Shown here: one piece after another, positions 151 to 52,439 of the stretch
Numbering within the stretch: position 1 is the stretch's first letter
Layout: every line of letters begins with the position of its first letter
From: Candidatus Neomarinimicrobiota bacterium
GTDB taxonomy: Bacteria; Fidelibacterota; Fidelibacteria; Fidelibacterales; Fidelibacteraceae
DNA: 64,000 bases
Reading direction: 5' to 3'
NCBI GenBank assembly: GCA_021157965.1
Contig: JAGGVO010000034.1
Coordinates: 1-64,000 of the forward strand
The notes under the pieces: model-generated
What the model was told of the DNA's origin: nothing
Database searches by the model: none
The model's input: the letters and a program-made list of their open reading frames with translations, nothing else
Program-made: the position numbers and the translations under genes

Positions 151-1674
151 ATGAAATTTAAAGAAAACACTCTTTGTTTGGATGGAAATCCCCTGACACT
201 TGAGGATTTCAAATACTACCTGCAGGTCCGACCGAAAATATCTTTGGATGAGAAGGTTATAACACGCCTGCAGGAGGGACGTGCCTATATTGAGGAGCAA
301 ATCCGGAACGGAAAAGTGATGTATGGTGTGAATACGGGATTTGGCCATCTGGCTCAGGTTCGTATTCCCGACGAGAGGCTGGATGAACTCCAGGTTAATT
401 TGATTCGAAGTCATGCTGCCGGTGTAGGTCCCAATATAGAAGCGGATATTGTCCGGCTTATGATGCTTGTTAAAATTCAAAGCCTGATACAAGGGTTTTC
501 CGGTGTGCGCCCTCTTGTTGTGGAACAAATGGTTTTCTTTTTGAATCACGACATTCTTCCCTGCATTCCGGCAAAAGGAAGTGTGGGTGCATCCGGCGAT
601 CTGGCTCCCCTGGCTCACATGACCCTTCCCCTCATCGGCGAAGGGAAAGTCATGGAAAAGGGGAGAGAAAGGGATGCGACCGAAGTGCTTAGGTCTTTAA
701 ACCGGAACCCCCTGACTTTAAAAGCTAAAGAAGGTCTGGCCATAATCAACGGGACACAGTCCATGACAGCCCATGGTGTGATGGCCCTGATCCGTACAGA
801 GAACATCCTGTATTCCGGTGAACTGATTTTTGGATTGTCTCTGGATGCCATGAAAGCCTCTTTGTCACCTTTCCACCGGGCCATTCATGAGGCAAAAGGC
901 TCTCCTTTCAATGCTGCCTGTGCGGACAGGATCCGTTATTATTTGCAAAAAAGTGAAATCAACCGTTCCCACGAACACTGCGATAAAGTTCAGGACCCCT
1001 ACTGTTTCCGGTGTTATCCCCAGGTGTGCGGGGCAGTGTGGGAAGCATACGATCATGTTAAACATATTATTATCCGCGAAGCCAATGGTGTCTCGGATAA
1101 TCCTCTCATTTTCAAGGAAGATGATCTGATTGTGAGTGGTGGGAATTTCCATGGTGAATCGCCAGCTCTGACACTTGATTACCTGGCCATGGCCGTCAGT
1201 GAAATTGCCAATATTTCAGAACGCCGGATTGCCGAACTGGTCGATACTCACATGTCCAGACTCCCGGCATTTCTTGTGGAAGACAGCGGGGTGAACAGTG
1301 GATTTATGATAGCCCACGTGACGGCGGCAGCCCTTGTTTCTGAAAATAAAGGACTGGCTACGCCGGCATCCGTTGATAGTATTCCCACATCTGCCAATCA
1401 GGAAGATCATGTGAGTATGGGACACCGGTCTGCCCGAAAACTGTTGGAGATTATTGAAAATACAGAAACCGTCCTGGCAATTGAATATCTGGCAGCTGCT
1501 GAAGGAATCGACTATCACCGTCCCCTGAAATCAAGTCCCGTTTTGGAAAAAGTACATCAGCGTCTTCGACAGGATATTCCGCATCTGGAAAAAGACAGAA
1601 TAATGTACGAGGATATCCGGAAAGCCCTCAATATCATCAAGAGCGGTTACCTTCAAAAAACAGCCAAACGGTAA
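151..1674 (+). CDS. hutH: Histidine ammonia-lyase
   Basis: 507 residues, the usual length for the family. It deaminates L-histidine to urocanate, the first step of histidine degradation, in the cytosol. The Ala147-Ser148-Gly149 triad in GSVGASGDLAPLA would cyclise to the MIO electrophile. MYGVNTGFG near the N terminus, His88 in SHAAGVG, KVQDPYCFRCYPQVCGA, and Glu418 in SANQEDHVSMG favour histidine over phenylalanine or tyrosine as substrate. The ATG at 151 follows an AGGA with 8 bases of spacing; an ATG at 147 is out of frame and stops at once. No hutU, hutI or hutG lies nearby, so the rest of the pathway must be elsewhere or absent. A related aminomutase is less likely on these residues. Confidence 0.93.
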   Translation: MKFKENTLCLDGNPLTLEDFKYYLQVRPKISLDEKVITRLQEGRAYIEEQIRNGKVMYGVNTGFGHLAQVRIPDERLDELQVNLIRSHAAGVGPNIEADIVRLMMLVKIQSLIQGFSGVRPLVVEQMVFFLNHDILPCIPAKGSVGASGDLAPLAHMTLPLIGEGKVMEKGRERDATEVLRSLNRNPLTLKAKEGLAIINGTQSMTAHGVMALIRTENILYSGELIFGLSLDAMKASLSPFHRAIHEAKGSPFNAACADRIRYYLQKSEINRSHEHCDKVQDPYCFRCYPQVCGAVWEAYDHVKHIIIREANGVSDNPLIFKEDDLIVSGGNFHGESPALTLDYLAMAVSEIANISERRIAELVDTHMSRLPAFLVEDSGVNSGFMIAHVTAAALVSENKGLATPASVDSIPTSANQEDHVSMGHRSARKLLEIIENTETVLAIEYLAAAEGIDYHRPLKSSPVLEKVHQRLRQDIPHLEKDRIMYEDIRKALNIIKSGYLQKTAKR

Positions 1675-1684
1675 TGTGATATAG

Positions 1685-1714
1685 ATATAATAAAAAGCCT
1701 CCATCTGGAGGCTT
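1685..1714 (-). terminator. Rho-independent terminator of rpsT
   Basis: AAGCCTCC at 1695-1702 pairs perfectly with GGAGGCTT at 1707-1714 around a 4-base loop. Read on the minus strand the hairpin is followed by TTTTTATTAT, so it ends rpsT transcription. The plus-strand side lacks a T run, so any effect on hutH is weak. Confidence 0.75.
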
Positions 1715-1741
1715 GTAGAAAATGAAGATATTTAGAAAAAA

Positions 1742-1996
1742 TTAATTCAGCGTATTTAAATGCCGGGAAAGGCGGGATTTAATACTTGCCGCCCGGTTTT
1801 TATGAAGAATTCCCTTTTGAGCAACTTTATCTACCAGGGAATAGACCTTTTTTAACTGTTCCTGACCACTCTCCCTGGAATCGTTATCCATGAATTTTTT
1901 GATCTCGGTTTTTACCAGGGATTTATAGTGACGGTTGCGCTGATTGCGTTTTTCAGCCTGACGGATTCTTTTCTTTGTTGATAACGGATATGCCAT
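1742..1996 (-). CDS. rpsT: Small ribosomal subunit protein S20
   Basis: 84 residues, a normal bS20 size, very basic and helical: it begins MAYPLSTKKRIRQAEKRN and has the conserved KNRAASIKSRLSRHL close. It binds 16S rRNA and helps assemble the 30S subunit. The frame is open for 20 further codons upstream, but the ATG at 1996 is preceded by AAAGGAGTGAT and gives the conserved N terminus, so it is chosen. The gene stands alone, convergent with hutH, with its own promoter (2028-2056) and terminator. Confidence 0.95.
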   Translation of the reverse strand: MAYPLSTKKRIRQAEKRNQRNRHYKSLVKTEIKKFMDNDSRESGQEQLKKVYSLVDKVAQKGILHKNRAASIKSRLSRHLNTLN

Positions 1997-2027
1997 ATCA
2001 CTCCTTTTCTCTTTTTTATAGCCTGAA

Positions 2028-2056
2028 AATTTATTTTCATTTCTTTGTAATGTCAA
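2028..2056 (-). promoter_or_regulatory. rpsT: Sigma-70-type promoter of rpsT
   Basis: On the minus strand a perfect TTGACA -35 (2056-2051) is followed after 17 bases by TAAATT (2033-2028). This predicts a start near 2021 and a leader of about 25 bases carrying the AAGGAG ribosome site. The match is by eye only. Confidence 0.6.
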
Positions 2057-2121
2057 TAAAATTGCATAAATATTTTTTGAAATTGTTCACGGTAATCTAA
2101 ATATTTTTATAAATTCCACTG

Positions 2122-2925
2122 ATGTTTTTCCTAATTCTGAAAATTCTCCTGATAATTATCACTTTTTTGTTACTTATAACGGCTTCCATTCTTTTTATTC
2201 CTTTCCAAATGACATTGCAGGCAGCGAAAGAGAATAAAAATATCTGTTTCAAAGGCGCAGCTTACTGGATATCCTGGTTGCTTAAGACCAAGATTGAATA
2301 CAGGGATCAAAAGATGAATGTATTTGTGGTATTCCTGGGTATAACTATAAAAATTCCTTTAAAAAAGATTGAAAAAAAGAAAAAAGTTGATGAAAAAGTA
2401 TCTGAAGAAAAAGTAAAGACCGAACCCATGAAATCTGACAGAGAACCGGATGACATGAAAACACAGGAAAAAAGGAGTGAGTCTCCGGAAGAAAAAGAAT
2501 ACACAGGAGTAGAGGCAAAGGATACTGAAGCTGAATCTATGGGAATAAAAGAAAAGATTGCTTTTTATAAACCTTTTATCCGAAAAACACTTTTACCTCA
2601 GATTCGTAGGATTTTTTCATATTTCCATCTAAAAATTCGTTGTCTTCATCTTGTATATGGAAATGAAAATCCGGCCGTGACAGGCTGGCTTGAGGGAACT
2701 GTTGCCTCCCTGAAACCTTTTATGGCTGCCAAAAGGAGCTCCGGTGCAGTGTCAACCTGCTTCTGTTATGATAAAAAGTCCCTGGATTTTAACGTTGATT
2801 TATATTTTTCTATGAATTTGTATGGTATTGTTATTAGATTATTAATTATTTGGTGGCACTATCGTAAACTGTCATCATTACAAAGAAGGATTAAGCATGA
2901 ACCAGACCCTGGAGAAGCTTCTTGA
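2122..2925 (+). CDS. DUF2953-like membrane-anchored protein (YtfI-like)
   Basis: 267 residues. Residues 1 to about 28 form one hydrophobic helix (FFLILKILLIIITFLLLITA). A lysine/glutamate-rich, low-complexity stretch follows at about 85-140, then a C-terminal half with LHLVYGNENPAVTGWLEGTVASLKPF, typical of DUF2953. The function of the family is not known. In Bacillus the YtfI member sits next to the GerW/YtfJ gene, exactly as here: the next gene starts 29 bases inside this one. No good ribosome site is seen before the ATG at 2122. The family call rests on the C-terminal pattern plus the gene pair. Confidence 0.6.
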   Translation: MFFLILKILLIIITFLLLITASILFIPFQMTLQAAKENKNICFKGAAYWISWLLKTKIEYRDQKMNVFVVFLGITIKIPLKKIEKKKKVDEKVSEEKVKTEPMKSDREPDDMKTQEKRSESPEEKEYTGVEAKDTEAESMGIKEKIAFYKPFIRKTLLPQIRRIFSYFHLKIRCLHLVYGNENPAVTGWLEGTVASLKPFMAAKRSSGAVSTCFCYDKKSLDFNVDLYFSMNLYGIVIRLLIIWWHYRKLSSLQRRIKHEPDPGEAS

Positions 2926-3256
2926 CAAAGCCCATGAATTTTTGAATACCAAGACGGTTGTCGGTGATCCGATTCACATAGATGACCTCACGTTAATCCC
3001 CATTTCAAAGATATCGGTGGGATTTGGAAGCGGTGATCATAATGCACAAGGGCATCACAACGATAAATCCGTAGTTGAAGGATTTGGAGGGGGGATGAAT
3101 ATCCACCCGGTTGCAGTGATTGCGGTTCACAAAGATCATGCAAAACTCATGATGCTTACCGGGAAGGAACAACAATTAGGTAAAGTTCTTGATCTGGTGC
3201 CTGATCTGCTGGATCGATTTGCCCCGAAAAAGACCGATCATAAGGAGGATGAATAA
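2897..3256 (+). CDS. GerW/YtfJ family protein
   Basis: 119 residues, the family's usual size. Seen: VVGDPIHIDDLTLIPISKISVGFGSG, a Gly/His-rich middle ending in EGFGGGMNIHPVAVIAV, and a C terminus about a L-x-x-L-V-P-D-L-L-D repeat. These match the YtfJ (GerW) family, studied in Bacillus as a spore protein needed for germination but widespread in non-sporulating bacteria, where its role is not established. The start at 2897 has AAAGAAGGATT upstream and overlaps the DUF2953 gene by 29 bases. It abuts the Crp/Fnr gene, whose ATG follows the stop directly, so the three are probably co-translated. Confidence 0.8.
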   Translation: MNQTLEKLLDKAHEFLNTKTVVGDPIHIDDLTLIPISKISVGFGSGDHNAQGHHNDKSVVEGFGGGMNIHPVAVIAVHKDHAKLMMLTGKEQQLGKVLDLVPDLLDRFAPKKTDHKEDE

Positions 3257-3937
3257 ATGGATATTTCTTTATTGCGTAATATTCCCCTTTTTGAAGATCT
3301 TGAAGATCAGGAGCTTGAACAAATCTCCAAGGTTATTCAGGTTCGAACCTATGAGAAAAACAAACTGATTCTTCTGGAAGAAGATTTGGGGGATACGCTT
3401 TTTATCATCAGTCAGGGGGCTGTTAAGATCAGCCGGATTAACGAGGATGGGAAAGAAGTAATTCTCAGTATTTTATCTGATGGTGAGTTTTTTGGTGAAA
3501 TGTCCATTCTGGATGGCGAGTCACGCTCTGCAAATGTGATTGCCTTGGAGAAATCGGAAGTATTTATGTTGAAACGGCAGGATTTTTTGGAAATGCTGGA
3601 GAAATATCCGAAGATATCCATCCATCTTCTAGAAGAACTTGCCCGCAGGCTCCGCCGGAGTGATCAGCAGATTGAAAGCCTATCTCTCAGTGATGCCGAA
3701 CACAGGGTCGCCAATACCATCATTCGTCTCGCCGAAGATTTGGGTGTCCATCTGAAAGGTTATGTTACGATCAATGATATTCCCCTGCAGCAGGATATTG
3801 CCAACATGGCCGGGACATCACGGGAAACAGTCTCCCGGATGTTGAAAATGCTGGAAAATAAAGGACTCATTACCCGTGAAGGACGGAAGTTGATCATCAA
3901 TAATTACATGGAATTCTACCGGAATTTCTCAAAATAA
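3257..3937 (+). CDS. Crp/Fnr family transcriptional regulator
   Basis: 226 residues. An N-terminal cyclic-nucleotide-binding beta roll (about 10-125) contains GEFFGEMSILDGESRSANV; the R-S pair sits where Crp proteins hold the cAMP phosphate. A C-terminal winged helix (about 145-215) has QQDIANMAGTSRETVSRML as the recognition unit. There is no N-terminal cysteine cluster, so it is not an oxygen-sensing Fnr. The ligand cannot be told from sequence. The start codon directly follows the GerW-like stop, with AAGGAGG inside the end of that gene, implying one operon. Its targets are unknown. Confidence 0.88.
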   Translation: MDISLLRNIPLFEDLEDQELEQISKVIQVRTYEKNKLILLEEDLGDTLFIISQGAVKISRINEDGKEVILSILSDGEFFGEMSILDGESRSANVIALEKSEVFMLKRQDFLEMLEKYPKISIHLLEELARRLRRSDQQIESLSLSDAEHRVANTIIRLAEDLGVHLKGYVTINDIPLQQDIANMAGTSRETVSRMLKMLENKGLITREGRKLIINNYMEFYRNFSK

Positions 3938-4012
3938 ACGTCGTAAACAGTACAATATTCTAACGACTGACAACTGCCGACTGAAGACTCCCCACCAATT
4001 CTCAATTAAAAA
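3938..4012 (+). repeat. Low-complexity intergenic word repeat (GACTG type)
   Basis: After the regulator stop the spacer contains ACGACTGACAACTGCCGACT followed by a C/A/T-rich tract ending CCAATTCTCAATT. The GACTG/CCGACTG and TTCTCAATT words recur in other spacers of the window (4959-5040, 16594-16632, 63533-63588). No coding sense is seen. Confidence 0.5.
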
Positions 4013-4028
4013 AAATAAATTGCCCATC

Positions 4029-4958
4029 ATGCCATTACTCCCATACGCCCGCAACGGTTTCAGATATAATCATTACAAATTTTTTCTGGATGATATGTTT
4101 CACACCCGTGTTCAGCGTTTATCCGTCGAAACCGGATTCACATGTCCCAACAGAGACGGCTCGAAAGGGTGGGGAGGGTGTATTTATTGCAACAACGACT
4201 CATTTATGCCGCCTTATGCCGTGACAGGGGACCTGAATGAACAGATCAGGCAGGGGAAACAGTATCTGAAAGAACGTTTTCACGCGGATAAATTTATTGC
4301 CTATTTTCAAAGTTATACGAATACATATGGGCCGGTATCAGTTTTAAAGGAGAAAATCAGGCAGGTTTTAGACGATAAAGATGTCGTAGGCATCTCTGTT
4401 TCAACCCGGCCGGACTGCCTGGAGAGGGAAGTACTTGATTTTCTGAAGGATATAAGCCGGTATACCTACGTGAACCTCGAGATTGGTGTGGAATCCATCT
4501 ATGATAAAACTCTGTTCTGGATGAACCGCTGTCACACGATGAAAGATACGCTGCAAGCGTTTGCGATACTGGAAGAATATTCATTTGATGTTACAGCACA
4601 CGTCATTCTGGGTTCACCCACTGAAACAAGAGAAGAAATGCTGGCTATGACCCGGGAGATCAATCAGTGGAAAATACGCTTTTTGAAATTGCATCACCTC
4701 CAGGTCATCCGAGGGGCACGACTTGAAAAAGAATACCTTGATAATCCGTTTCATCTCTTTGAATACAAAGAATATCTCGATTTGGTTACAGACTTTATTT
4801 CCAGAATAAAACCTGAGATCATTTTTCAGCGCCTTTTTGCCGAATCACCGGGTTCCTATCTGGTGGCTCCTGTGTGGAAAAAAAGAACTACCGAAATCAT
4901 CATGGATATTCAGAAAACCATGCATGATAAAGGCTTGTGGCAAGCCGGTCAGTTGTAA
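4029..4958 (+). CDS. TIGR01212 family radical SAM protein (YhcC-like)
   Basis: 309 residues from the ATG at 4029. The family has a variant iron-sulfur ligand motif: here Cys39, Cys51 and Cys54 in CPNRDGSKGWGGCIYC. AYFQSYTNTYGPVSVLKEKI and VVGISVSTRPDCL are typical family blocks, followed by VNLEIGVESIYDKTL. The reaction is not established for the family. A TTG at 4020 in the same frame could start three codons earlier; neither start has a Shine-Dalgarno site, so the ATG is preferred. Repeat-rich spacers lie on both sides, so it is probably transcribed alone. Confidence 0.88.
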   Translation: MPLLPYARNGFRYNHYKFFLDDMFHTRVQRLSVETGFTCPNRDGSKGWGGCIYCNNDSFMPPYAVTGDLNEQIRQGKQYLKERFHADKFIAYFQSYTNTYGPVSVLKEKIRQVLDDKDVVGISVSTRPDCLEREVLDFLKDISRYTYVNLEIGVESIYDKTLFWMNRCHTMKDTLQAFAILEEYSFDVTAHVILGSPTETREEMLAMTREINQWKIRFLKLHHLQVIRGARLEKEYLDNPFHLFEYKEYLDLVTDFISRIKPEIIFQRLFAESPGSYLVAPVWKKRTTEIIMDIQKTMHDKGLWQAGQL

Positions 4959-24011: not shown

Positions 24012-26300
24012 ATGAGAAAAAGATTGATATACGGATTAATGCTCCTGTTCATGATGGTGTCCATGTTGTCGGCTGGCATTGCAAGTGTCATTAAGACAAA
24101 AGGTGATGTAAAACTTTTACCTGCCGGCAGCTTTGATTTACTGACAGTTGAAGTCGGGACACAGTTGGAGAACGGGGATGTAATTCAAACGGCATCAGAT
24201 GGTTTTGCAGTTATTATGTTTAATGATGATAAAACCCTTTTAAAGCTGCGTGAGAATGCACAAATCACGCTCAACGATGAGATACCCTCCAGAACGGTGG
24301 AAATGGATAAAGGGGAAAGTTTATTTGAAGTAACCCCCGGAGCCCTGAAGGAATTCAGGGTCCAGACTCCGGTATCTGTCGCATCAGTAAAAGGGACCAA
24401 GTTCTGGGTGGTTTGTCAGGAAAATGAGGACAGGATTTTCACAACAGAGGGTACGGTTGAGGTTTTTAACACTCTGTCAGGACAGACGGGTACCGTCACC
24501 CGGGGACAGGTATGTATCAATACAACCGTTGGTGATATGCAGATCAGAAATTATTCAGCCTCAGAGCTTCCCGATGAATCGGTATTTAATTCCATGATGG
24601 AAGAACCTGTGCAAGAAGATACCCCTCAAAAAGAGCCTGAAGAGGAAACAGAGCCTGTGGATCGATCCGAAACAACCATTACTCCTGCGCAACCCATTAC
24701 GACACCTCAAATGGAGGAAACAACTGAAATGCCCGTTGAAACCGGAGAAGAAGAAGCAGAACCGGAAAAACAGCCTGAAGATGGTGAAGGGAAAAACTAT
24801 GGCGTTGGTCTGGGAGTGGGGTCTGTAACCATCAATGGGAAACTCTACAACCAGATCGCTGCAAGACCCACATTGCAACTGGGAAAACTTGGAGTGGGTT
24901 TGGATGTGGTTCTTTATATTGACAGCGAAGGAAATATCCTGGAAGATAACTGGAACTCAATGGACGATGTCCTGGATAAGATTTATTTCCTCAGCTGGGG
25001 ATTTATGGAGGATCCGTTTTATGTCCGTCTCGGTGGATTGGACCAGGTTACCATGGCAAACGGCCTCATTGTTTCGGGTTACACCAACATGTTGGAATAC
25101 CCTGAAGTCAAACGATTGGGAACCTACCTGAAATTCCGGACCGGAAAAATCGGATTCAATGGCTTCATAGCAGACTGGAATGAACTGGGCGGTGAAACAT
25201 TGATTCCCGGCTTGCTGGGAGGAAGGGTTTCTTATAACACAAAACTCATCCTGCCGGTCAGTGTGGGATTAAGTGTTATTTCGGATGTAAATCCTTACAA
25301 TGCTTTTGACAGGGATCGGGATGATGACGGGTATTCCGATTTGATGGATATGTTTCCCGATGACAGTGAAACTTACCGGGATACGGATGGTGACGGTCTG
25401 GCAGACAACAGGGACGTGGATCCTGCCGGAACAGGAGGATGGTATTATGATTCCAATCTGAATATGACTCCTTCCGAAATCAATGCGCTGGATAAGTATT
25501 TCAAATCTTTGGGATATACAAACGGTCCTGATTCTACAAGCACCCTGATGGAAGTTCCTACGATTTCTAAACTCATGGATGATCACCCGACAATATATTC
25601 CATAGGTGCAGATGTTACGGTACCTGTTTTGAATATGTCATTCCTGAACTTGAATGTCTATTCCGAAGCAGCGATTCTGGGTTATACCGGAGGAACGGTG
25701 GATAAAATGGCTTTCGGTGCAGCGCCTTTTGGCGTGGCAGCCAATATCATCAAAATCATAGATGCACGGGTTGAATACCGCTGGGCACAGGAAAATTTCC
25801 GCTATAACTTTTTTGACAGAAATTACGACATCAACCGGGTTTATGTGCAGAGAGATTCTCTGGGGAACATTGTTCCGAAGACCAAATTCGACCGGATTCT
25901 GAATGATAGCATTCCGGGGGTCCAGGGTATATATGGTGCTGCCGGTGTAAAGCTCTTTAACGTGGCTTACGCTCAGGCATCCTATATGCACATGGTGTCG
26001 AAAGATCAGGACGAAGTCCGGAGTTTTAATGCTCAGGCTGGTATCCAGAAAGGACTGGTTCCTAAATTATCGGAACTGTCCGCCTATTACATCCGCAATA
26101 ACGATCCAAATCCATTCAAGTTCAAAGATCCTTCGGAAAACACGATTTGGGGATACCGGGTCGGCGCAGAAGTGAGTCCCGGTGTATCCATAATCTGGAA
26201 TTTTATGACAACTTACCGGGATAAAAACGGTGATGGTGTTATCCAACCCAAAGAAGAATCTCTGAAAATCACCACTATTGAAACAGGAATTACACTCTGA
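24012..26300 (+). CDS. FecR-domain protein fused to a predicted outer-membrane barrel
   Basis: 762 residues. A signal peptide (residues 1-about 23) leads into a FecR domain (about 25-185): GDVKLLPAG, LENGDVIQTASDGFAVIMF, PVSVASVKGTKFWVV. A Glu/Pro/Thr-rich linker (about 195-260) follows. The rest alternates strands with glycine turns (GVGLGVGSVTINGKLYNQIA), as in outer-membrane barrels, and at about 432-472 carries a calcium-type Asp repeat (DRDRDDDGYSD then DTDGDGLADNRDVDP) resembling thrombospondin type 3 repeats. FecR domains usually act in sensing or assembly. AATGGAGGTCATAG is a strong ribosome site. Another exported gene follows after 10 bases. The function is unknown. Confidence 0.8.
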   Translation: MRKRLIYGLMLLFMMVSMLSAGIASVIKTKGDVKLLPAGSFDLLTVEVGTQLENGDVIQTASDGFAVIMFNDDKTLLKLRENAQITLNDEIPSRTVEMDKGESLFEVTPGALKEFRVQTPVSVASVKGTKFWVVCQENEDRIFTTEGTVEVFNTLSGQTGTVTRGQVCINTTVGDMQIRNYSASELPDESVFNSMMEEPVQEDTPQKEPEEETEPVDRSETTITPAQPITTPQMEETTEMPVETGEEEAEPEKQPEDGEGKNYGVGLGVGSVTINGKLYNQIAARPTLQLGKLGVGLDVVLYIDSEGNILEDNWNSMDDVLDKIYFLSWGFMEDPFYVRLGGLDQVTMANGLIVSGYTNMLEYPEVKRLGTYLKFRTGKIGFNGFIADWNELGGETLIPGLLGGRVSYNTKLILPVSVGLSVISDVNPYNAFDRDRDDDGYSDLMDMFPDDSETYRDTDGDGLADNRDVDPAGTGGWYYDSNLNMTPSEINALDKYFKSLGYTNGPDSTSTLMEVPTISKLMDDHPTIYSIGADVTVPVLNMSFLNLNVYSEAAILGYTGGTVDKMAFGAAPFGVAANIIKIIDARVEYRWAQENFRYNFFDRNYDINRVYVQRDSLGNIVPKTKFDRILNDSIPGVQGIYGAAGVKLFNVAYAQASYMHMVSKDQDEVRSFNAQAGIQKGLVPKLSELSAYYIRNNDPNPFKFKDPSENTIWGYRVGAEVSPGVSIIWNFMTTYRDKNGDGVIQPKEESLKITTIETGITL

Positions 26301-46526: not shown

Positions 46527-46569
46527 AGTATGCGAATTGGGTTTTCTGTTAATTTATCAGGGGCCGGAC

Positions 46570-47145
46570 ATGAGAAAATACGATCGGGAAAAATACCACC
46601 GCCGTTCCATCCGGTTGAAGGGATACGATTATTCACAGGCCGGGGCGTATTATGTGACCATGTGTACCCAAAACCGGGAATGTTTATTTGGGGAAATTGT
46701 GAATGGGAAAATGCGATTAAATGAATACGGGCAAATTGTCCAACAATGTTGGATGGAAATCCCGCAACATTATCAAAATGTACAATTGGATGAATATGTG
46801 GTCATGCCGAATCATGTGCATGGTATTATTATCATCAATGAATCCGATATATCCACCGTAGGGGCAATTCATGAATTGCCCCTACGGCATGAATTGCCCC
46901 TACGTCATGAATTGCCCCATTCACGTGAACAACGCCGTAATATGTTATTGCCGAAAATCATTGGACGATTCAAAATGAATGTTGCCAAACCCATCAATAG
47001 AATACGTCAAACACCAGGAATATCCGTTTGGCAACGCAATTATTACGAACACATTATCCGAAATGAAAATGAATTAAACCGTATTCGGCATTACATCATC
47101 AACAATCCGTTACATTGGAAAACAGACGATAATTTTGGTGAATGA
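46570..47145 (+). mobile_element. REP-associated tyrosine transposase (RAYT), Y1/IS200-like HUH family
   Basis: 191 residues from the ATG at 46570; the frame opens at 46537, but conserved sequence starts at RKYDREKYHRRSIRLKGYDY. His82-V-His84 in MPNHVHGIIII is the HUH metal site, and Tyr158/Tyr159 in QRNYYEHIIRN the DNA-linking tyrosine. RAYTs move or maintain short REP palindromes. Between the two motifs is an added segment VGAIHELPLRHELPLRHELP encoded by a palindrome plus 18-base repeats (separate entry). GTAACC/GTGACCATG and other blocks are near-identical in the broken copy downstream. The gene looks intact. Confidence 0.87.
46856..46922. repeat. Perfect palindrome with three in-frame 18-base repeats inside the RAYT gene
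   Basis: 46856-46887 is a perfect 32-base palindrome: CCGTAGGGGCAATTCA followed by its exact reverse complement. Its right half is the first of three direct 18-base units (46870, 46888, 46906), each reading CATGAATTGCCCCTACG plus one base; the third decays after GCCCC. Each unit is six codons, H-E-L-P-L-R, so the insert keeps the reading frame. It has the form of a REP/MITE-type palindrome that landed and was then tandemly copied within a coding gene. Confidence 0.85.
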
Positions 47146-47499
47146 CACCAACAAAAAACAACCCCGAATACCATCACCGCCGTTCCATCCGGTTGAAGGG
47201 ATACGATTATTCACAGGCCGGGGCGTATTTTGTAACCATGTGCACCCAAAACCGGGAATGTTTGTTTGGGGAAATTGTTGATGGGAAAAATAATGTTGAA
47301 TGATGTAGGACGGATGATTCAAACCGTATGGGATGAAATCCCCGTGTATTACCCAGGCATCGATGTGGATGCATTCGTCGTCATGCCCAATCATGTGCAC
47401 GGTATTATTATCATCAATGAATCCGATATATCCACCGTGGGGGCAATTCAAGAATTACCCCTACAGCTTTTGTTTGAAATTGCATATCTAAACCCATAA
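47142..47499 (+). pseudogene. Frameshifted and truncated second RAYT copy
   Basis: It starts on an ATG that overlaps the stop of the first copy (ATGA at 47142) and repeats YHHRRSIRLKGYDYSQAGAY almost exactly. An extra A in the run near 47285-47290 shifts the frame: the first frame stops at 47303 while the second frame continues MLNDVGRMIQTVWDEIP to MPNHVHGIIIINESDIS. Similarity ends at a diverged copy of the palindrome (about 47434-47467, VGAIQELPLQ); the tyrosine half is missing. The HUH histidines remain, but no functional transposase can be made. Confidence 0.85.
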
Positions 47500-50468: not shown

Positions 50469-52439
50469 TTGCAGCATTTCTTCAAAACATTATCGTTCAT
50501 CCTGCTTTTGCATGTTATGCTTATTGCACAACCATGGCAACAGAATGATGCTATTTTCAATCCCAGTGGCGTACCCAGTCTGATGTTTTCCCATCCCCGT
50601 TTTGCCGACTTGGATGAGGATGGGGATTTTGATATGATATTGGGGAATATGAGTGATAAACCTCTTTTCCTGGAGAATGTTGGGACGGCATCGTCTCCGA
50701 AATTTCAGGTCGGTTCAGATGATATTTTTTCCCTTGTATCTTCGTTAGACGCAGAAGCAGGTGTAATGGCCGATATAAACGGAGATGGGAAACCTGATTT
50801 TATTACAGGTGGATATACCGGGCTGCATCTCTATAAAAATGCAGGTGTTCCTGAATTTCCCATTTTTGTGAAAGAAGAAGGATATTTCTCCGGAATAAAT
50901 GCCGGATCTTATCCTGTACCGGATTTGGGAGATGTTGATAACGACGGTGATTTGGATTTGGTATTGGGATTCAGCGAAGACGGTTCGGTAAAAATATATT
51001 TTAACACGGGGAATGATTCCGTGGCCCGGTTTTCAGACAATAATACCCTTTTTATCGGGGATGTGGGACTCTATGCTTATCCGGTTTTTTGCGATATGGA
51101 TACCGATGGAAATTTGGATATCCTGACAGGCCGTGACGGACACGGGTTTGCCTATTATAGAAATACAGGGGATGCTGCAAATGGTGTCTGGCATCCCGAT
51201 GCTATCCCTTTTGACGGTATCGGGAGCGATACGTATTTTAACTCACCGGGGGTTGCAGATTTAAACGGAGACGGCAAATTGGACCTTGTATATGGTTCAG
51301 GATCGGGACCTCTGAATTATTTTCGGAATACAGGTACGGCACAAACACCCGCCTGGACACGGAATACAACTCTTTTTGGCGGTACTTTAGACGTAGGAGG
51401 GGCCTCTAACCCCGTTTTTTACGACTATGATTTTGACGGAGATCAGGATTTATTCAGTGGAAGCAATCTGGGTGATATCAAATATTATGAAAATACCGGG
51501 ACCGCTTATTCTCCTGCATGGAAAGAGAAAAGCAGTTCTTTTGCGGGCTTAAAGCATTCTATCTATGCTGCCGTGACAATCGGCGACGTCAATCAGGATA
51601 GTCTGCCCGATGCCATCGTAGGTGATTTAAGCGGCAATCTCTATTTCCATAAAAATACCGGAAGCGGCTTTATTCTCCAAAGCGATGTCCTGTCACATAT
51701 CTCTCTTGGCGGCTGGTCTGTACCGCGACTGGTGGATATGGACGGTGACGGCGATCTGGATCTGGTTACCGGAAATGAAGCGGGAAATCTGTTTTATTTT
51801 GAGAATCAGGGGACACCGGATAATCCCGACTGGGTGGAAATTGCGGACTATTTTAACGGTATTGATGTGGGATCCAACTGTGTTCCGTCTGTTGCAGATT
51901 TTACCGGAAATGGCAGATTGGATGTCCTGACGGGAAATATGTGGCGGGAATTGAATTTTTTTACCTTTCAGGACAGTGTGTGGCAGGAAGATACAACTTT
52001 TTTTACCGGAATTGCCGGTGGACAAAATACGTCGCCGGCTTTAATCGATATGGATGGTGACGGAGATCAGGACCTGGTTTTGGGATGTTATGAAGGAACA
52101 TTCAGTTATTATGAAAACAAGGCAGGTACAACAAGTCTGACGAATCAACACATAATTTTTCCGGATGACTTTGGGTTGAAAAACTATCCAAACCCCTTTA
52201 ACGCCTCTACAACAATAGAATTTACCCTATCCATGACAACCCCCGTTTATTTGACGATCTTTGATCTGAGGGGCCGTGAGGTCTGTTCCTGGCGGTTTTC
52301 CGAACTTAGCCGGGGTGTCCATACACTGAATTGGGACGGTTTTAGTCAGGATGGTTCTCCGGCAGGTTCCGGTGTCTATATCTGTCAGATACGTACCCCG
52401 GAACATGTTTTATCCAAAAAAATGATTCTTTTAAAGTAG
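50469..52439 (+). CDS. Secreted FG-GAP/VCBS-repeat protein with C-terminal sorting tail
   Basis: 656 residues. A signal peptide (about 1-20, LSFILLLHVMLIAQ) precedes many FG-GAP/VCBS-like repeats of the form D-x-D-x-D-G-D-x-D-L-x-x-G (FADLDEDGDFDMILGN, MADINGDGKPDFITGG, LGDVDNDGDLDLVLGF and more), predicted to fold into a calcium-binding beta propeller. The end is a type A sorting domain: LKNYPNPFNASTTIEF, GVHTLNWDG, GSGVYICQI and a final KKMILLK. It should be exported and attached or released at the surface. The target is unknown, perhaps carbohydrate or protein. Confidence 0.88.
   Translation: MQHFFKTLSFILLLHVMLIAQPWQQNDAIFNPSGVPSLMFSHPRFADLDEDGDFDMILGNMSDKPLFLENVGTASSPKFQVGSDDIFSLVSSLDAEAGVMADINGDGKPDFITGGYTGLHLYKNAGVPEFPIFVKEEGYFSGINAGSYPVPDLGDVDNDGDLDLVLGFSEDGSVKIYFNTGNDSVARFSDNNTLFIGDVGLYAYPVFCDMDTDGNLDILTGRDGHGFAYYRNTGDAANGVWHPDAIPFDGIGSDTYFNSPGVADLNGDGKLDLVYGSGSGPLNYFRNTGTAQTPAWTRNTTLFGGTLDVGGASNPVFYDYDFDGDQDLFSGSNLGDIKYYENTGTAYSPAWKEKSSSFAGLKHSIYAAVTIGDVNQDSLPDAIVGDLSGNLYFHKNTGSGFILQSDVLSHISLGGWSVPRLVDMDGDGDLDLVTGNEAGNLFYFENQGTPDNPDWVEIADYFNGIDVGSNCVPSVADFTGNGRLDVLTGNMWRELNFFTFQDSVWQEDTTFFTGIAGGQNTSPALIDMDGDGDQDLVLGCYEGTFSYYENKAGTTSLTNQHIIFPDDFGLKNYPNPFNASTTIEFTLSMTTPVYLTIFDLRGREVCSWRFSELSRGVHTLNWDGFSQDGSPAGSGVYICQIRTPEHVLSKKMILLK

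Follow-up and report, generated by a model that had tools for sequence, protein, structure and literature searches.

The DNA analysed here is a stretch of 64,000 nucleotides from a Candidatus Neomarinimicrobiota bacterium (contig JAGGVO010000034.1), to which we will refer as the window. Near its left end lies a pair of genes coding for a DUF2953-like membrane protein and a small protein of the GerW/YtfJ family, followed by the gene of a Crp/Fnr-family regulator (hereafter crp) and preceded by the divergent rpsT (Table 1). The three open reading frames (ORFs), the overlap between the first two and the abutting regulator were all found on the plus strand at the positions where an earlier, sequence-only reading of this DNA had placed them.

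Table 1. Features of the rpsT-crp locus (positions counted from the first letter of the window).
Feature	Position	Strand	Basis and remarks
hutH, HutH-type aromatic amino acid lyase (PF00221)	151..1674	+	Pfam match; second landmark of the crp locus
rpsT (ribosomal protein S20)	1742..1996	-	Named from sequence, as is its start codon; divergent left neighbour, landmark of the crp locus
Intergenic region between rpsT and the pair with crp	1997..2121		Contains a promoter-like site for rpsT
DUF2953-like membrane protein, 267 aa	2122..2925	+	Firmicute-only profile; AlphaFold2 model
GerW/YtfJ family protein (PF09579), 119 aa	2897..3256	+	Pfam; invariant residues
Crp/Fnr-family regulator, 226 aa	3257..3937	+	Pfam domains; orthologues common in the phylum

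The DUF2953-like ORF and gerW overlap by 29 nt, and the ATG of crp comes immediately 3' of the gerW stop codon (TAA, 3254-3256), preceded by an AGGAGG that resembles a ribosome-binding site. The 29-nt overlap is not fixed, as this junction varies from -29 to +3 nt among six genomes of the genus; the gerW-crp spacing ranges from -44 to +94 nt in the loci of the phylum where both genes adjoin. Such small gaps between gerW and crp in the clade are compatible with a single transcript, and, judging by spacing alone, the pair and crp are probably co-transcribed in the clade of the window. A pattern scan of the plus strand of 1600-4100 gave zero terminator-like sites. On the minus strand, a promoter-like site for rpsT was recognized by consensus match (TTGACA-17-TAAATT, 2056-2028), in a region holding 5 sites where 7.2 are expected from region shuffles. 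A palindrome at 2024-2039 was considered as a Crp site and rejected: it shares bases with the promoter-like site of rpsT, and across the genus, as compared by eye, nothing but its AAATTTATTT core is conserved.

Elsewhere in the window, two diverged tandem repeats (46537-47467; 89-90% over 137 and 102 nt, spacing 578-579) span an IS200-like transposase gene; PF01797 is matched in the ORF at 46537-47145, and the second copy, without a listed ORF in the same frame, seems broken. A 656-aa protein (50469-52439) with nine FG-GAP repeat matches and a C-terminal match to a FlgD-Ig / Por secretion sorting domain is, from its sequence, probably an exported surface protein, and a 762-aa protein with a FecR domain is encoded at 24012-26300.

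The first gene of the pair is invisible to Pfam, as its ORF matches zero families at E<=1, and PF11167 (Pfam DUF2953) has no match at E<=1 anywhere in the source genome. Nonetheless, the label DUF2953 given by the sequence-only reading was right. A profile built from 38 Firmicute genes located upstream of gerW, with Neomarinimicrobiota sequences left out (the Firmicute-only profile), detects the 267-aa protein at E=2.5e-10 (35.8 bits over the whole protein and 28.8 for its best-scoring stretch; the composition bias is large), and none of 200 segment-wise shuffles of the protein reached even E<=10. Among 1318 ORFs of 41 loci of the phylum, the same profile produced 36 matches (E<=1e-3), every one of them the gene immediately upstream of gerW; the five gerW loci without a match are L063, L072, L091, L092 and L099, the last of which lies at the start of its contig. 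These sequence comparisons show the 267-aa protein to be related to DUF2953, though diverged from it, and we name it “DUF2953-like” because it stays under the PF11167 cut-off. Its AlphaFold2 model (mean pLDDT 84.6) comprises helices at 2-25 and 233-259 and a segment without assigned structure at 80-141, and the architecture can be described as a hydrophobic N-terminal helix, a beta region, a charged low-confidence linker, a conserved C-terminal block and a C-terminal helix. The net charge of the linker, a weak test of topology, is positive in only 48 of 71 cases and slightly negative in the protein of the window. A DUF2953 protein is also named in a passage of a Bacillus cereus membrane proteome study (PMC8624511).

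The GerW protein matches PF09579 over its full length (profile positions 1-81 of 81) with 68.9 bits (cut-off 25), and scores under the cut-off of the NCBIfam sporulation equivalog TIGR02874 (59.8 vs. 116.3 bits). Eleven residues are invariant over 45 bacterial and archaeal GerW sequences (T20, G23, I34, P35, K38, G42, F43, G46, G66, P71 and P102). Identity reaches 75% with the GerW of the same-genus locus L201 and 95% with that of L086, and none of the 72 GerW matches of the phylum contains an internal stop codon. Foldseek gave no match at E<=0.001 for either the DUF2953-like or the GerW model, and the best Z values obtained by VIA-align (5.6 and 3.9, respectively) were both under the typical best Z of this tool for models without a clear match. 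Chains of LolA, LolB and RseB recur for the DUF2953-like model at Z 3.9-4.6, which was not taken as kinship. Sequence searches of the PDB yielded no relatives, the best matches being E=0.037 for the DUF2953-like protein (a stretch of photosystem protein Z) and E=0.54 for GerW. With a GerW model that is itself middling (pLDDT 73, pTM 0.46), and no significant structural match for either protein, these comparisons support no biochemical activity.

The regulator contains a cNMP-binding domain (PF00027, 93 bits) and a Crp HTH domain (PF13545, 56.4 bits), and its score lies under the cut-off of the CRP equivalog (PRK11753, NF008732; 123.8 vs. 266 bits). In ten other genomes the gerW-linked crp is the best match, at 55-98% identity, with second matches at 36% or less, which defines an orthologous group. 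Orthologues were detected in 179 of the 245 genomes of the phylum (E<=1e-45), many of them devoid of GerW. Twenty crp loci away from gerW were fetched for comparison of their neighbourhoods; rpsT lies left of crp on the opposite strand in 16 of them (in L220 with a small ORF between), and was not found to the left in L214, L215, L224 and L227. Farther left, HutH and IMPDH are often encoded, and meaB, tatC, polyprenyl synthase and glycosyltransferase genes are frequent on the right (Pfam-confirmed for single members). The orthologue thus appears, as its spread suggests, to be a core regulator of Neomarinimicrobiota. Where the pair is present at the rpsT-crp locus, its insertion site is the interval between these two genes, which measures 1118-1281 nt with the pair (15 loci) and 92-567 nt without it (16 loci). 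In the fetched loci L212-L231, the crp orthologue often neighbours rpsT, a MeaB-like gene, tatC and polyprenyl synthase.

The source genome (2.3 Mb, 96% complete) belongs to a diderm bacterium, in agreement with the Gram-negative-type host proposed from the sequence. Omp85 was found in the 11 genomes searched, with five matches in the source genome; the assignment rests on Omp85, since LptD had no match in this genome and was matched in 3 of 11. The host had also been described as a likely non-sporulator, and the three spore marker families searched are in accord: Spo0A_C (0/21 genomes), SpoIVA (0/21) and GerA (0/11) had no match, the source genome included, and the Bacillus subtilis control was positive each time.

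Within the phylum, GerW (PF09579) is present in 71 of 245 genomes, distributed over 28 of 84 genera and 13 families. The sequence-only reading had staked its case on conservation of the pair among relatives, and the pair is indeed conserved. PF11167 exceeds its cut-off in 39 of the 245 genomes, and in all 39 the gene is upstream of gerW (38 on the same strand inside a 700-nt window; in G061, whose gene shares contig and strand with gerW, slightly beyond that window by its coordinates). The proposal that the regulator forms part of the same unit held only in part. On the one hand, crp lies directly 3' of gerW in 41 of the 71 GerW genomes, from 7 families (32 recognized by table coordinates and nine from the locus view). 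On the other hand, crp adjoins rpsT without the pair in the 16 loci mentioned above, and the other 30 GerW genomes (6 families) carry the pair elsewhere; among these, 26 encode the crp orthologue away from the pair, and the remaining four lack a match at E<=1e-45. In the eight loci examined with the pair away from crp, a member of the PhoH cluster always lies close by on the left. A small protein of 129-134 aa is encoded after gerW in four such loci (L067, L069, L076 and L081), with a 4-nt overlap in three of them, and that of L069 has two CBS domains (PF00571). Furthermore, two genera of the family of the window (g2 and g3) have an intact DUF2953-gerW-crp arrangement, and rpsT was not seen beside the pair.

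A tree of 45 crp proteins, of which 25 adjoin the pair and 20 do not (near-copies L082, L083, L088 and L097 dropped), was used to follow gain and loss of the pair. The state of the pair requires six changes on this tree, four of them being forced by well-supported branches, a count which gives no direction. Two genomes, G215 and G216, are without gerW both genome-wide and at the crp locus, and are nested within their family among relatives that bear the pair (support 100/97). Of the 75 nt next to rpsT, 63-65 are kept in comparison with L074/L071, and 54-57 in comparison with the more distant L079/L080. Their loci (L213 and L212, respectively) represent a natural empty site, in which rpsT adjoins crp, the pair is absent and the upstream region is otherwise kept. 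This is most simply explained by clean loss of the pair alone with retention of crp; on this reading, the pair is dispensable in that lineage while crp remains.

Outside the phylum, a scan of species genomes with the GerW alignment confirmed at least 524 relatives, of which the best 80 were kept; as this sample is biased to the best matches, the breadth found is a lower bound. Among these best 80 of at least 524, the pair occurs in Clostridia, Gemmatimonadota, Latescibacterota and Methanosarcinales. A DUF2953-like gene is located upstream of gerW in 70 of the 80 loci (69 within 250 nt, and L175 at 303 nt) and downstream in two, both from Methanosarcinales. None was found beside gerW in the remaining eight, four of which come from Fibrobacteres, two from Firmicutes and one each from KSB1 and Riflebacteria; one of the Firmicute loci, L185, is truncated where its contig ends. 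GerW can therefore manage without DUF2953, at least locally. The profile applied to the 80 loci was built from 43 of the same loci, including L145 and four from the phylum, which makes its Firmicute part partly circular. The Firmicute-only profile also finds the gerW neighbours in L152 and L196 (Methanosarcinales), L145 and L157 (Gemmatimonadota, the latter only at E=1.2e-4), L133 (Latescibacterota), L175 (Deferribacteres) and L132. Pfam confirms DUF2953 in L152, L196 and L133, and gives no match in L145 and L201. Methanosarcina acetivorans, which served as a control genome, is matched by both PF09579 and PF11167. A Crp profile (E<=1e-3) detected two of the 3272 ORFs in the best 80 loci, those of L201 and L134, both beside gerW and both from Neomarinimicrobiota. 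The link to crp is lineage-specific.

A GerW tree was built with 65 rows, 33 from the phylum and 32 from the scan (19 hand-chosen Firmicutes and 13 others), omitting the same four near-copies (L082, L083, L088, L097) and those phylum loci with a displaced pick of the gerW ORF. The 19 Firmicute sequences form one group (100/100), apart from the 33 of Neomarinimicrobiota. Two archaea and one Riflebacteria row fall on the Firmicute side, and Gemmatimonadota, Latescibacterota, KSB1, Deferribacteres and Fibrobacteres fall on the side of Neomarinimicrobiota. On this topology, recent transfer from Firmicutes was rejected. As to a single origin of GerW within Neomarinimicrobiota, the crp-linked and PhoH-linked GerW sequences are not grouped in the tree, and forcing them together was not rejected (AU p=0.07).

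Several function leads can be found in other organisms. According to the passages of one publication, GerW of B. subtilis was once reported as necessary for germination with L-alanine, a re-test in B. subtilis and Bacillus megaterium revealed no effect on germination, the earlier result being most likely strain-derived, and the protein is expressed in the forespore with a role called unknown (PMC4366231). The suggestion that spore germination is one case of a wider role loses its support with the absence of a defect in these two Bacillus species; the germination premise fails. Beyond spores, passages of other papers mention the YtfJ gene Fisuc_0582 of Fibrobacter succinogenes, up at pH 5.65 by RNA-seq, a case of condition-dependent expression (log2 2.1; samples of an acid-tolerant derivative; PMC5442110), and YtfJ of Ca. 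Methanoperedens, whose protein was lowered under salt (PMC11337218). Among the open-licence articles of PubMed Central, judged by titles and passages, no work on the pair in organisms other than spore formers was found.

Altogether, we favour, with moderate confidence, the explanation that the pair is an old, sporulation-independent DUF2953-GerW module in which a protein anchored in the membrane is paired with a small soluble one, and that in the clade of the window it would be co-transcribed with crp and would serve an envelope or stress role. Both proteins appear to have been inherited together and probably act together, as their linkage indicates. In the clade of the window, the module sits between the divergent rpsT and the more widespread crp; transcription with crp would most likely start from the intergenic region on the rpsT side, and translation could be coupled where the genes overlap. 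The DUF2953 protein would most likely hold GerW at the inner membrane. The sequence-only reading had proposed a general envelope or stress role, and the neighbours and the predicted membrane anchor suggest one in the envelope; with modest confidence, the function is most likely an accessory and condition-dependent one, of the envelope or of stress, that can be lost.

A closer tie to the regulator was also weighed, in which the three genes would be a functional unit, the Crp-type regulator sensing a cyclic nucleotide and controlling the pair, or being co-controlled with it. The 41 GerW genomes of the seven families with the pair at the crp locus all have crp 3' of gerW, the source genome has two matches to PF00211 (class III cyclase), and the survival of the link in g2 and g3, without rpsT at the left, speaks most strongly for a functional tie to crp and counts against the weaker connection favoured here. 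However, the orthologue is present in many genomes without GerW (179 of 245 genomes in total) and keeps its place beside rpsT in 16 of 20 fetched loci; moreover, 30 GerW genomes carry the pair elsewhere, G215/G216 lost it and kept crp, and only L201 and L134 among the best 80 loci, both from Neomarinimicrobiota, hold a Crp-profile ORF. We consider such a unit rather unlikely on this evidence. It is more doubtful still that GerW binds RNA and that its DUF2953 partner positions RNA or a ribonucleoprotein at the membrane: GerW is named among the RNA-binding hits in a passage of an OOPS study of B. subtilis, but this is a single mention in a high-throughput work (PMC12456014), and neither a recognized RNA-binding domain nor a structural match accompanies it in GerW.

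It seems very improbable that the pair was left over, in decay, from a spore-forming ancestor, or was recently acquired from Firmicutes. Its patchy occurrence (GerW in 71 of 245 genomes, none at the empty site of G215/G216) and a DUF2953-like ORF under Pfam detection could be read in this way, but the invariant residues of GerW are kept, as is its identity to L201 (75%) and L086 (95%), none of the 72 GerW matches is interrupted by a stop codon, the three spore markers have no match and Firmicute GerW forms a separate group in the tree. Coming back to the old, sporulation-independent module, conservation of the pair in double-membraned bacteria without a spore marker match indicates that it probably has another, older job. 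A bolder version of this idea, which we regard as tentative and somewhat short of an even chance, is that DUF2953-GerW might be a primordial spore-independent membrane module common to diderm bacteria, endospore formers and methanogens, brought later under forespore control; its real function would then have been missed because it was sought in spores, where deletion gives no germination defect. To call members of the GerW family “sporulation protein” or “spore germination protein” is misleading, and the search for the function of this family shifts to vegetative cells of tractable non-sporulators and to methanogens. One family, with its naturally empty site, offers a ready genomic contrast.

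Regarding known systems, the regulator shares with the cAMP receptor protein CRP the same two domains (cNMP-binding and Crp HTH); it is a member of the superfamily, and orthology to CRP is unsupported by its score (123.8 vs. 266 bits). The GerW-family genes mentioned in the published passages on F. succinogenes and Ca. Methanoperedens (YtfJ) come from organisms which are not known to form endospores; the four Fibrobacteres loci of the scan are, unlike the window, without a DUF2953-like neighbour. In the archaeal loci L152 and L196 (Methanosarcinales), both families are adjacent on one strand as in the window, but in reversed order, with GerW first, and without a Crp-profile match in either locus. 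Clostridia differ from the window in their neighbours, with D-Ala-D-Ala carboxypeptidase on the right (L148, L156) and scpA-scpB upstream (L156) instead of crp on the right and divergent rpsT on the left; compared with both Bacillus and Clostridia, the window belongs to a genome without a spore marker match, and its DUF2953-like and GerW proteins lie under the Pfam and TIGR02874 cut-offs, respectively. Nonetheless, the ytfI-ytfJ (gerW) genes of Bacillus, whose order we take to be DUF2953-gerW, and the DUF2953-gerW genes of Clostridia have the same layout as the pair described here: both families on one strand, the membrane protein first, and the two genes overlapping or close.
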